Translations under genes and position numbers: made by a program
Origin: Candidatus Rifleibacteriota bacterium
GTDB lineage: Bacteria; Riflebacteria; Ozemobacteria; Ozemobacterales; Ozemobacteraceae
Assembly: GCA_029560455.1 (NCBI GenBank)
Contig: JAKQKW010000482.1
Span: 1-24,913, forward strand
Reading direction: 5' to 3'
Length of the DNA: 24,913 nucleotides
The notes under the pieces: model-generated
Database searches by the model: none
Told to the model about the DNA's origin: nothing
What the model saw: the letters and a program-made list of their open reading frames with translations, nothing else
In this document: piece by piece, positions 3,241 through 6,969 of the stretch
Layout: every line of letters begins with the position of its first letter
How positions within the stretch are numbered: the first letter of the stretch is position 1

Positions 3241-3528
3241 CTAATCAAGAGCTTTGAGGTTAAAATTAACGAAGGTATAACCTTCATCAGTCCTTTTAAT
3301 TGTTATTTTAGTGTCTTTATTAAGCAAGGGAAGGGGTCTGATAATTTCTTCAAGCTGCTCATCAGTAAGGGTTTTAACATCGTCGCTGAAAAAAACGATG
3401 CTTTCGGCCGCAATGCCTTGCCAGCTCCAGGCCTGGTACAAAACCTCATATTCATCAATGGTAGCAAGTTTTTGCAGTATTACATGCGTATCAGGATCGT
3501 TGGGAATATTACTGAATTTTTCGCTCAT
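3241..3528 (-). CDS. Hypothetical small protein, last gene of the Ubl/E1 operon
   Basis: This is a 95-aa acidic soluble protein that I do not recognise. It has no signal peptide or membrane segment. The sequence alternates predicted helix (DEQLEEIIRPLPLL) with strand-like stretches (TKITIKR, GYTFVNFNL), suggesting a small alpha/beta fold. I chose the ATG at 3528 because GGAGA lies 8 nt upstream; a GTG at 3534 would sit only 2 nt from that site. It follows the broken E1-like gene on the same strand and overlaps its third reading frame. It ends 9 bp from the hsdR stop, convergent and with no terminator between. From position it may be a partner of the ubiquitin-like module, a small antitoxin-like gene, or an unrelated passenger. 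Confidence 0.7.
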   Translation of the reverse strand: MSEKFSNIPNDPDTHVILQKLATIDEYEVLYQAWSWQGIAAESIVFFSDDVKTLTDEQLEEIIRPLPLLNKDTKITIKRTDEGYTFVNFNLKALD

Positions 3529-4238
3529 TTTCACTTCTCCTCTTCTTTTTCACTGTTGGCAGAAAACAGAATTCCGACATCTGGTCTGGCAGTTGGCATG
3601 TTTTCAATTCTTCTATTGGCTTTGCCAATCTCTCCATTTTTGTTGATCTTCTGGCGTTGAGAATTTTCCAGTCTACTTCGCTCATCGTACATTCGTATAG
3701 CATGGGCCATCAGGTGCAAAAACTCTGGCGACACCGCTCAAGCCCTCTATGGCGCCGTCGATCCAGGATTTTCCGCTTCTGAAAGCGTTCTGATTGATTG
3801 CCAATCTGGCTTCGCGGTTATCGAGACCGCCAAGAATCACATCGGCCCAGTAAAAAACCCCGAGGCCGAGGTCGGTTACCGCATTTACACACAGCGGTCT
3901 GATATTGATTTCGGGAAATAATTCGCGTGCGCGTTCGGCAGCGACATCGGCCTTGTTGCGCCCGCGGTCAGACTCACGAAAAAGCACCGAGCGCGAAAGA
4001 TTCGAAGGCTCGATCTGGTCGAAATCAACGAGCAGAATGTTGCCGATTCCGACCAGGGCCAGATTTTTGATAATTCATTGCCAAGGGCACCGGCACCGAT
4101 TACCAGCACCCGGGCATTCTGAAGACGGCTTTGATCCCACCAGCGGATAAGTTCGAACCTTGAAAAACGGTTCTCCTGCTGACCGGTGGAAATTTTTAAA
4201 ACCGTACCCTGATCAGTTGAGTTCTGATCTTCTGTCAT
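3509..4238 (-). pseudogene. ThiF/E1-like adenylyltransferase, frameshifted and C-terminally truncated
   Basis: Read across three frames, this is a ThiF/MoeB/E1-family enzyme, which activates the C-terminus of a ubiquitin-like protein with ATP. Frame 1 (4238 to about 4071) carries the nucleotide loop GAGALGNE at residues 48-55. Frame 2 (about 4070 to 3702) continues with NLALVGIGNILLVDFDQIE, NLSRS, GRNKAD and the diagnostic GGLDNREARLAINQ. Frame 3 (about 3701 down) gives ECTMSEVDW, completing a CxxC zinc pair (CYEC) with the end of frame 2. The first shift fits one lost base; the second fits one lost or two gained bases. After the ARRS motif homology stops, and the expected C-terminal part with its second cysteine pair is absent. 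The ATG overlaps the upstream Ubl stop as ATGA, so translation was coupled. It is probably a decaying gene; indel errors in the assembly are the alternative. Confidence 0.82.
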
Positions 4239-4507
4239 GCAGCCTTCCCGGCGGTGATTTCGGGCTGAATGCGCAGCACATCGCCTGAATTGACGCCGGC
4301 CTGATGAAAGGTTTCGTCATCGAGAAGCTGGCGGCCTGAGGCTTTGAACTTGTAGCTCATCAGCTGGCCATCAGGAGTAAATCTGGGCAGATTCATCCTG
4401 TCGATGAGAAGAATTATGATGCGGTTTACGGCTTCGTCGTCCGGAAGTTCAGCCTTTACTTTTTTGTTTCCGGTGGCATCCCAGATCTCAACCAGTACGG
4501 CACCCAT
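4235..4507 (-). CDS. Ubiquitin-like beta-grasp protein (EsaB/YukD type)
   Basis: This 90-aa protein has the pattern of a ubiquitin-like fold: an N-terminal strand pair (VLVEIWD, KKVKAEL), a central helix (DEAVNRIIILLIDRM), and C-terminal strands (MSYKFKASGRQL, SGDVLRIQPEI). It resembles YukD/EsaB-type proteins found in bacterial operons with ThiF-like E1, E2-like and JAB-like genes. It ends EITAGKAA, so it has no exposed GG tail; a Gly lies four residues from the end and might be used after trimming. Start ATG 4507 has AGGGGA about 8 nt upstream. Its stop overlaps the E1 start (ATGA), the strongest sign that the two act together. No E2 or deubiquitinase is visible in the window. It could instead have a non-conjugating role like YukD itself. 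Confidence 0.82.
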   Translation of the reverse strand: MGAVLVEIWDATGNKKVKAELPDDEAVNRIIILLIDRMNLPRFTPDGQLMSYKFKASGRQLLDDETFHQAGVNSGDVLRIQPEITAGKAA

Positions 4508-4529
4508 GGGTTTGATCCCCTTTCTGATT

Positions 4530-4557: not shown

Positions 4558-4731
4558 AGCCTGCAATATTCATGCATCTCTGAGAAAGTATATACCCCAA
4601 CACAACCGGGGAGTGTGGTGATTTATTTCACATGCAAATTGTTTGCAAATTTCTTTGTAAAAGTTAGGGCAGGGGATATTTACATAAAGCAAAATAATCA
4701 TTATTATAAAAAAATACTGGAGGTGCTATTG

Positions 4732-6186
4732 ATGAAATTTACCCGCAAACTCGTTCTTGCCGCTCTGGCTGCCTCTCTCAGCTTTTCATATTCACCGGTT
4801 CAGGCTTCTGAAAAGGTTAACGTTCTGGTAATTGATTCAGGCAGTGATTTCACTCACGATGCACTCAAACCCCTGGCACTTCCGAACGACCTCGAACTCA
4901 ACGGCAAAGCCGGCGTAGACGATGACAACAATGGCTACACCGACGACATTTTCGGCTGGAACTTTGTTGACAACAGTGCAACTCTGGTGAATCTTTCTGA
5001 CACACCTCCTGACTATGACAAAGTTTTGCGCTGCATGGAACTCCTCGGCAAACTGCAGGCCTATGGTAAAGACGGTCTGACTGCTGAAGAATACGATTAT
5101 CTCGTAAAAAATTACCAGGACAAGCAGTTCTGGGCCTGGGTCGGTTTCACCGGCGGCTGGGCACACGGTACTCATTGTGCCGGTATCGTTTCAACCAAAA
5201 ATGACGGTGTTAACCTCAATGCCATCAAACATATTCAGACAGGCGGTGCACCGAAAGAAGAAGCCGCTCAGGCTCTGACAGCCATCAAGCATGCGATGCT
5301 GCACCGGCGCACTACCCGCAATGATGCTGCCGCTTCCGAAGGCGGGCAGAAGGTCACCATGGCCGATCTCGAAAAGTATTTCACCCAGCTCGGCCAGCAG
5401 TACGCGGCCCAGATCAAGCCCAAGGCCGATTACGTTGCTTCCCTGAAGCCGAGATTGATCAACTGCTCATTTGGCTCAGAAAACAAAAGCCTGTGCGAAA
5501 TGATAAAGGGCAACATGGTTCAGTGGGGCTTTCAGAACCCGACCGACGCCGAAGTTCAGGAAGTCGTGAACCTGTTCGTCACCAGAGCCTTTCTGCCAAG
5601 AGATAAAGCTTTCTTCGCCGGCTGCAAGGATGCTCTGATTTTCATCGCCGCTGGTAACTCGACTGAAGATCTCGACAACATCGTCACTTCACCGAATGAT
5701 GTTCCGATAGCAAACAAAATGGTTATCGCCGCCACCGACGAAGACCAGAAAATCGCGCCGTTCTCATGCTTCGGCCCCACCAAGGTTGACGTTGCTGTGC
5801 CTGGCGTGAACATTTTCGCAACTTATCCGAACCAGAAGATGGGCTACATGTCAGGCACTTCGATGGCCTGCCCGAATGCCGTCAGATTCGCTTCGATGGT
5901 TCTCGGTGTCAATCCGAACCTCAAACCTGCTCAGCTGAAAAAGATCCTTATGGATACCGTCGACAAAAAAGACTGGCTGAAAGAAAAAGTGCGGTCGGGT
6001 GGGGTGATCAACGTAACCCGCGCCATGTATGCCGCCCAGCAGATGCTCGATGGGAAAACGCTGTTCGAAGCCGTTAAAACTTCACGGGCTCAGGTTGCCG
6101 ACAAGGCTCCGAGATCTGCCAAGCGCACCCGCCCGAATCTCAGTGACCCGATGGTAAAAGAACTCTACTTCTCGGTCATCAAGTAA
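4732..6186 (+). CDS. Exported subtilisin-like (S8) serine protease
   Basis: This is a secreted serine endopeptidase of the subtilase family. From the ATG at 4732 it has 484 aa. GGAGGTG lies 6 nt upstream, and a typical signal peptide follows (MKFTRK, hydrophobic core, cleavage likely after PVQA near residue 25), so the longer open frame back to 4615 is not the true start. The catalytic triad is Asp35 (VIDSG), His145 (HGTHCAG) and Ser377 (SGTSMACP), with the oxyanion Asn309 (AAGNS). There is no recognisable inhibitory propeptide between signal peptide and domain. Large insertions separate Asp from His and follow the His (about 155-240). An Asp/Asn-rich loop near 62-72 (DDDNNGYTDD) may bind calcium. 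The C-terminal 50 residues are basic. It is monocistronic and ends at a strong terminator. Confidence 0.95.
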   Translation: MKFTRKLVLAALAASLSFSYSPVQASEKVNVLVIDSGSDFTHDALKPLALPNDLELNGKAGVDDDNNGYTDDIFGWNFVDNSATLVNLSDTPPDYDKVLRCMELLGKLQAYGKDGLTAEEYDYLVKNYQDKQFWAWVGFTGGWAHGTHCAGIVSTKNDGVNLNAIKHIQTGGAPKEEAAQALTAIKHAMLHRRTTRNDAAASEGGQKVTMADLEKYFTQLGQQYAAQIKPKADYVASLKPRLINCSFGSENKSLCEMIKGNMVQWGFQNPTDAEVQEVVNLFVTRAFLPRDKAFFAGCKDALIFIAAGNSTEDLDNIVTSPNDVPIANKMVIAATDEDQKIAPFSCFGPTKVDVAVPGVNIFATYPNQKMGYMSGTSMACPNAVRFASMVLGVNPNLKPAQLKKILMDTVDKKDWLKEKVRSGGVINVTRAMYAAQQMLDGKTLFEAVKTSRAQVADKAPRSAKRTRPNLSDPMVKELYFSVIK

Positions 6187-6270: not shown

Positions 6271-6969
6271 TTATTCGGTTTTTTCAGTTGGCAGAATCTT
6301 GTTCAAAAGAATACCAACAATTGCAGCCAGAGCCATACCTTCGATTTTGAACGACAGGGCTCCGATGCTGACTGGAAAAACCGCACCACCAAGACCGAGA
6401 ACCAGAATAACTGCAACAATGATAAGGTTTCTCGACTGGCACAGATCGATGCGGCCTTCGATAAGGCTTCGGGCACCGATTGCTGCAATCATGCCGAAAA
6501 GAACAACAGAGATGCCGCCGACCACGGCTTTGGGAATAGTAGAAATAATGCAGCCAAGTTTTGGGACAACACCCATCAGAATGGCGAATCCGGCAGCAAC
6601 TCGCATAACCTGAGGATTATGAACTTTTGTAAGAGCGACAACCCCTGTATTCTCAGAATAAGTAGTATTTGGCGGGCCACCGAACATAGTGGATACTGAA
6701 GTTGCCGCGGCCAGTGGTGCGATAAACGCAAATGATGAGCCCAGGAATACCGGCATACGGCCTCTGGTTATCAGGTGAAAAATCAGGGTTCCGATTCCGG
6801 CCATGAACAGGGCAACAGAAACATCCAGCCCGGTGATTAAGGGCACGAGAACTGTAGCACCAAACATGGTAAAAGCGTGCTGCAGACCAAGAATTATTTT
6901 TTTTCCGAGAGGCAGGGGAACATTCTCGCAGATGACACCCTGATTTCCTGCTGCAAATGCCTGATCCAT
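6271..6969 (-). CDS. uraA: Uracil/xanthine permease (NCS2), internally deleted remnant
   Basis: Both ends match UraA-type nucleobase:cation symporters, which import uracil or xanthine across the inner membrane. The N-terminal part has QHAFTMFGATVLVPL and GSSFAFIAP; the C-terminal part has GGPPNTTYSENTGVVALT, VPKLG, GGISVVLFGMIAAIG and SRNLIIV. The protein has only 232 aa against about 430 in E. coli UraA. After FAFIAP (near residue 86) it jumps straight to the segment before GGPPNTTY, so about 190 residues are missing in frame. The lost part holds several core helices and the AEHVGH segment with the essential substrate-binding Glu (Glu241 in E. coli). It is unlikely to transport. AGGGAG lies about 6 nt before the ATG. 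An assembly collapse is possible. Confidence 0.85.
   Translation of the reverse strand: MDQAFAAGNQGVICENVPLPLGKKIILGLQHAFTMFGATVLVPLITGLDVSVALFMAGIGTLIFHLITRGRMPVFLGSSFAFIAPLAAATSVSTMFGGPPNTTYSENTGVVALTKVHNPQVMRVAAGFAILMGVVPKLGCIISTIPKAVVGGISVVLFGMIAAIGARSLIEGRIDLCQSRNLIIVAVILVLGLGGAVFPVSIGALSFKIEGMALAAIVGILLNKILPTEKTE

Follow-up and report, generated by a model that had tools for sequence, protein, structure and literature searches.

Burroughs, Iyer and Aravind in 2011 reportedly predicted bacterial operons that combine a YukD-like ubiquitin-like protein (Ubl) with E1, E2, Prok-RING and JAB proteins, and they are said to have also proposed the conjugation of YukD-like Ubls. Among the operon types of Iyer 2006 (PMC1779556), the bacterial types 6a-6e combine E1, E2 and JAB, with a Ubl in 6d and 6e, and row 11 groups YukD with ESAT-6 export genes and reports it as not conjugated. 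A passage of a 2014 review (PMC4197634), citing Burroughs 2011, assigns Caldiarchaeum-related operons to Actinobacteria, Planctomycetes and Acidobacteria. The Bub system is mentioned in an excerpt of PMC13373217, and the relevant part of the review PMC11354881 gives single E2 instances in four phyla, Riflebacteria included. In the literature searched, no description of the Riflebacteria operon treated here was found among the matches listed. The kind of operon is already known as a prediction and is little tested; new here are the remnant described below, a PEITAG end with a variable tail, co-occurrence counts and an apparently repeated loss within one phylum.

The window, i.e. the whole stretch of 24,913 nucleotides that was analysed, very probably contains a recently dead remnant, comprising the 5' end only, of a Ubl conjugation operon inherited within Candidatus Riflebacteria. 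The features concerned are listed in Table 1.

Table 1. Features of the window around the Ubl and E1 remains, with the evidence for each
Feature	Position	Strand	Evidence
hsdR, type I restriction subunit, 1032 aa	133..3231	plus	TIGR00348, 665 bits against a cut-off of 285
95-aa orphan gene	3241..3528	minus	family of at least 12 proteins listed besides the window's own
Tail of the piece C ORF, without E1 homology; junction region	3509..3645	minus	reading frames, DNA comparison with L001
E1 piece C: YECTMSEVDWKILNARRS; homology end, just before the conserved cysteine motif	3646..3708	minus	profile positions 162-182, E 8.9e-8
E1 piece B: adenylation domain with IEPSNLSR and DNREARLAINQ, reaching the first zinc cysteine	3712..4074	minus	profile positions 36-162 of 380, E 7.7e-66; Pfam ThiF E 3.5e-20
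E1 piece A: N-terminal part with the GAGALG nucleotide-binding loop, frame lost shortly after	4080..4238	minus	profile positions 1-38 of 380, E 8.7e-19
Ubl, YukD-family beta-grasp protein, 90 aa	4235..4507	minus	Pfam, alignment, AF2 and Foldseek, motif counts
S8 subtilase-type peptidase	4729..6186	plus	Pfam; genome comparison
Xanthine/uracil-type permease ORF, 232 aa, middle missing	6271..6969	minus	relatives of 446 aa (G001) and 444 aa (G024)

The Ubl and its C-terminal tail

The Ubl gene of the window comes from Candidatus Riflebacteria, and its product is a YukD-family beta-grasp protein. The reading frame is open, and the translated sequence matched Pfam YukD with an E value of 3.7e-6 (28.0 bits against a cut-off of 27). 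Structure prediction by AlphaFold2, proposed as a check in the preliminary description, gave a ubiquitin or beta-grasp-like fold with a mean pLDDT of 86. The best PDB match of this model in Foldseek was the Caldiarchaeum ubiquitin 6fj7 (E 2.8e-6, TM 0.72/0.80), and all 50 PDB matches listed were ubiquitin-like proteins or complexes containing one. The earlier reading of this gene as a YukD-type beta-grasp Ubl whose end overlaps the next start by ATGA was confirmed in both respects.

A total of 1,367 Ubl relatives were detected at E values up to 1e-3, and the best 120 of them were examined. Among these 120, identity to the window Ubl was 79-90% in proteins named as Riflebacteria or Ozemobacteraceae and 65-75% in those named as Planctomycetota. 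The window Ubl has lost two residues at the YKFHHK site (YKF--K), which is filled in 119 of the best 120 relatives; the sole exception with the same loss was P0001, a protein 99% identical to the window Ubl.

The preliminary description had pointed out that the Ubl ends in AGKAA rather than in GG. In the alignment the tail motif is intact, with the window protein ending in QPEITAG followed by KAA. PEITAG was present in all of the 120 listed proteins, which were selected by similarity as the top 120 of 1,367, and in all Ubls of the 80 loci treated in the next section (80/80), a count that is partly by construction as the Ubl tail was one of the two patterns used in the scan for loci. The residue before PEITAG was Q in 75 of the locus Ubls and L in the other 5, while the tail behind the motif measured 0 to 25 residues among the listed proteins and reached 51 in the loci. 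Judged from sequence, the fixed PEITAG end with a free tail has the look of a precursor trimmed by a JAB protease. As far as the relevant part of PMC5654768 describes it, the pro-ubiquitin of Caldiarchaeum carries a nine-residue tail which is cut off by an Rpn11/JAMM protease. Given this precedent, the fixed PEITAG with its variable tail and the JAB gene that follows in 43 of the 45 loci counted below, we regard the AGKAA end as normal for the family and not as a defect.

Intact relatives and the proposed pathway

The scan of genome contigs for Ubl relatives with the two patterns gave 213 confirmed loci, of which 80 were kept. The intact operon used for comparison, L001 from Candidatus Rifleibacterium amylolyticum, has the gene order Ubl, E1, JAB, FHA membrane protein, RING, RING-HtrA, E2 and a further zinc-ribbon protein, with a cysteine-rich tail on the E2. 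Its products matched the Pfam families ThiF (9.8e-51), JAB (1.2e-10), FHA (1.9e-14), Prok-RING_1 (1.6e-11), Trypsin_2 (6.9e-23) and UQ_con (5.5e-11). Among the RING matches, only that of the 222-aa protein passes the Pfam cut-off of 29.1 bits; the one within the HtrA protein reached 26.7 bits and the one in the product of the last gene 27.5 bits, both just short of it. An intact operon was also found in a named strain, Lacipirellula limnantheis I41 (L044), and in the E1 tree the operon is spread over nine named groups.

Co-occurrence was counted in those 45 of the 80 loci whose sequence continues for 8 kb or more downstream of the Ubl. The partner-gene profiles used for this started from L001 and were refined by iteration on the very loci being counted; E1 was detected in 42, JAB in 43, FHA in 42, RING in 42, E2 in 35 and HtrA in 23. 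The Ubl itself was counted in 38 of the 45, a shortfall read as an effect of the start-position window. Catalytic motifs were highly conserved. Of the 69 full E1 rows, 68 carried CYEC, and the conserved cysteine beyond the break point of the window E1 was likewise present in 68 (67 by pattern and one in a variant motif by eye); the JAB catalytic motif was kept in 67/67 rows. HPN was found in 40 of the 41 E2 rows. The cysteine following it was present in 39, recognised by pattern in 36 and by eye in 3, and the remaining two rows are fragments. Among 28 HtrA rows, GNSGG was present in 23 and a cysteine-rich N-terminus in 21. Hydropathy of the L001 proteins indicated a single membrane stretch for JAB and several for FHA. 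In RING-HtrA, three merged stretches (125-150, 156-182 and 189-213) separate the RING from the protease part; rough counts of membrane segments over the 28 HtrA rows ranged from 1 to 7.

Variants of this arrangement were observed as well. Three JAB-type ORFs lie downstream of the same Ubl and E1 in L076 and L080. L124 and L125 (genomes G031 and G032) display a compact order of E1, Ubl, E2 and JAB, and no FHA, RING or HtrA match was obtained in the stretches of these two loci that were examined.

Since the intact relatives hold E2 and JAB genes in the same operon, the assignment of the Ubl and E1 to a ubiquitin-like conjugation family is upheld. A cofactor adenylyltransferase of ThiF or MoeB type was considered for the E1 and rejected: the intact L001 E1 scored far under both NCBIfam cut-offs, with 122 against 275 bits for ThiF (TIGR02356) and 83 against 377 bits for MoeB (TIGR02355).

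For the intact relatives we infer a reaction order, membrane roles and, for the window, a cause of the rearrangement. The JAB protease would first cut the Ubl back so that it ends in ...PEITAG. The E1 would then adenylate the terminal glycine of PEITAG and load the Ubl on its own cysteine, from which the E2 would accept it. The membrane-bound RING proteins may serve as E3s for nearby substrates, with the FHA protein as a putative phospho-reader beside them, and the tag would be taken off again by JAB. The membrane stretches of RING-HtrA would place the RING and the protease on opposite sides of the membrane. More tentatively, and as a reading that we hold to be possible rather than likely, the relatives might represent one widespread membrane-bound pathway with a mono-glycine (AG) modifier cut by JAB, in which a cytosolic RING is linked by some three membrane segments to an HtrA protease on the far side and tagging is thereby coupled to proteolysis, and which was lost more than once in Riflebacteria, with the window and genome G012 holding two different remnants.

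The relatives matter more than the window. They are bacterial operons with genes for each step of a ubiquitin-type cascade, with RING proteins and often with a protease. Intact operons, one of them in a named strain, make the conjugation of YukD-type Ubls directly testable, and the same holds for the coupling of bacterial tagging to proteolysis.

Breakage, descent and probable decay

The E1 gene was described earlier as carrying GAGALGNE, DNREARLAINQ and CYEC. The signature stood, with the E values given in Table 1, while a single intact gene was not found. The three E1 stretches sit in three reading frames, together cover only positions 1-182 of a 380-position profile built from related E1s, and CYEC can be read only by changing frame within it. 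At the DNA level, the window matches the intact L001 over positions 3645-4523 with 75% identity, and homology then ends; the second half of the E1 is therefore gone. NARRS are the last homologous E1 residues in the window, and the next residue in L001 is the cysteine of the conserved motif, which, going by E1 chemistry, we take to be the catalytic one. Accordingly, the adenylation half is present in three frames and the catalytic-cysteine half is absent. Beyond the stump lies first a tail that shows no homology to the E1, then the 95-aa gene and finally hsdR; a rearrangement probably fused the E1 stump to the latter two. Profiles of JAB, FHA, RING, HtrA and E2 gave no match in the six frames of the window at E values up to 1.

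Directly visible in the DNA and its translations are the breakage and the absence of the other genes, the existence of intact relatives, and the conservation of the tail and catalytic motifs. With an E1 that is frame-broken and has lost its cysteine half, and with no E2, RING or JAB, the genes of the window cannot sustain a conjugation cycle. The suggestion of a reduced module thus gives way to a broken remnant rather than a minimal working set. The window probably does not cover the whole contig, and the missing genes could lie elsewhere, as do the E2 and RING-HtrA genes of G002 and G004. In these two genomes (L002/L133 and L004/L134) the genes from Ubl to RING are on one contig and RING-HtrA and E2 on another.

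Alternatively, the breaks could be a sequencing, assembly or binning artefact in a strain that has an intact operon, perhaps with a chimeric join in the contig near 3645. However, hsdR (1032 aa) and ORFs of 728 and 483 aa, by eye presumably glutamine synthetase and asparaginyl-tRNA synthetase, stay open in the same window, and two frame changes and a truncation coincide within one gene. The frame-shifted 117-aa ORF has letter-for-letter identical entries on three contigs, the longest of 6,655 bases; being shorter than the window, these were taken for other contigs, whether independent or not. The two-residue loss shared with P0001 points in the same direction. We consider an artefact improbable. 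It may be that all three contigs with this ORF stem from one population.

It was also considered that the locus is reduced but working, with the Ubl still used through another E1, or without conjugation as reported for YukD. The open frame, the well-predicted fold and the intact tail motif agree with such a use, but the dedicated E1 is dead and two residues are lost at an otherwise filled site. No type VII partner was seen either: WXG100, EssC or FtsK-type genes were absent from the nine window ORFs scanned, a set that includes four fragments of the Ubl/E1 locus. None were seen among the seven L001 operon proteins (Pfam) either. This alternative is improbable too, slightly more so than an artefact, and a dead remnant remains the preferred reading. 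The window Ubl, with an open frame and past purifying selection, could still be used.

In the E1 tree (78 rows, with the window occupying 46% of the alignment columns and the root placed only for display), the window was the sister of L001 inside a clade of L001-L004 with support of 100/100. The E1s of G031 and G032 were placed elsewhere, and two long branches join outside the part that matters. Ubl genes were detected in 7 of 39 Riflebacteria genomes, which may be incomplete, with one match cut by a contig end and three distant. E2 genes were present in eight of the 39, comprising all seven Ubl-bearing genomes and G012, i.e. one of the 32 others (Fisher p 5e-7).

For the Ubl, pN/pS between the window and L001-L004 was 0.08-0.21, compared with 0.07-0.18 for intact pairs; for E1 piece B the values were 0.13-0.23 and 0.18-0.23, in a test that is coarse because synonymous sites are near saturation. 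The end branch of the window E1 was 0.15 against 0.27 for L001, calculated on 46% of the columns. Both the values near those of intact pairs and the shorter end branch suggest that the E1 gene was probably under selection until recently, and the decay looks recent. The window shows how a Ubl conjugation pathway dies within a lineage.

In G012 a second remnant was observed (L131 8108-10300), in which an HtrA ORF is fused to an FHA-type membrane segment and is followed by an E2 with an in-frame stop. The genes upstream of it are housekeeping genes by eye, and no Ubl match was found in the G012 genome. In the window, the broken permease gene adjoins the S8 gene on its far side and is a second broken gene near the E1. 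Because the permease is also internally deleted, this part of the chromosome seems to erode.

Neighbouring genes and comparison with known systems

The preliminary description had placed the Ubl and E1 in a defence block and proposed the 95-aa protein as a possible unrecognised partner. Such a defence-island conjugation system, of Bil, Bub or CBASS-like type with adjacent restriction genes, would fit the hsdR next door, and Bil and CBASS employ E1/E2/JAB proteins according to a section of PMC11354881 and to PADLOC models. A relative of the 95-aa protein on a viral contig (L126 5001-7931) lies, by eye, near a cytosine methyltransferase and a vsr-like nuclease. However, the survey of co-occurrence pointed the other way. 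At 1e-5, none of the 80 related loci held a homologue of hsdR, and the 95-aa family had no match in the 39 Riflebacteria genomes, including the seven with a Ubl, in a search run without a positive control. No Ubl was seen near the viral-contig relative.

The upstream flanks sampled were not rich in defence genes. ORFs of 180 to 899 residues were listed, up to four per locus and only for loci with 9 kb upstream, and 82 ORFs from 32 loci of the 129 ORFs from 36 loci were compared with PADLOC after four near-duplicate loci and some distant ORFs were dropped. At 1e-20 four PADLOC families were detected with one member each, DndA, SspA, mad3 and PD-T4-6, of which we take DndA and SspA to be cysteine-desulfurase models; in Pfam the upstream ORFs belonged to mixed ordinary families. 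Within L001, the best PADLOC match of JAB was 1.7e-5, that of E1 was 9.4e-18 through the ThiF-type part only (residues 30-161), and the Ubl and E2 had no match at E values up to 0.1. The defence-linked reading was therefore not supported by the hsdR survey, by PADLOC on the flanks or by the 95-aa search, and it is the least probable of the alternatives weighed against a dead remnant.

The neighbours have relatives of their own. An hsdR 91% identical to that of the window is located on another Rifleibacterium contig (G001), and S8 relatives were found in 14 of the 39 Riflebacteria genomes with 42-71% identity over most of the length of the window protein. Six regions around S8 and one around hsdR were read in other Riflebacteria genomes, and neither a nearby Ubl nor an empty site was found. 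The 95-aa proteins are a possible small restriction-associated family, and no member was seen in the conjugation operons; a protein identical to the window's own is listed for at least 20 contigs, the longest of 36,296 bases. P0009 (Ubl), P0139 (E1 cut at MSEV) and P0123 (95-aa relative) are each listed with a 3,377-base contig; if they share one contig, the 95-aa gene would be near a Ubl in a second lineage, which would be the one hint for a partnership.

The intact relatives resemble several described systems. The types of Iyer 2006, as given in the portion of PMC1779556 concerned, likewise bring together E1, E2 and JAB (6d and 6e also Ubl), and differ in that RING, FHA and HtrA do not appear among them. 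Bil, as described in part of PMC11354881, shares with the intact relatives a Ubl, E1, E2 and JAB-type protease in one operon; however, its BilA has two ubiquitin-like domains, and RING and HtrA are not mentioned in that part. As to membership in Bil, the L001 Ubl and E2 were without a match among the models of PADLOC 2.0.0. The operon of Candidatus Caldiarchaeum subterraneum shares with the intact relatives, according to the sections of PMC5654768 that treat it, the ubiquitin fold, a pro-peptide tail, E1, E2, a small RING and a JAMM protease. It differs in being archaeal, in its di-glycine end and in that no FHA or HtrA gene is mentioned in those sections; the copy of the window, moreover, is broken.

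The operons reportedly predicted by Burroughs 2011 share the gene set and the Prok-RING_1 family with the intact relatives, whereas the window keeps only the Ubl and half an E1. Beyond these operons, the present analysis counted the PEITAG ends and their variable tails, RING-HtrA as a partner, and the nine named groups over which the operon is spread.
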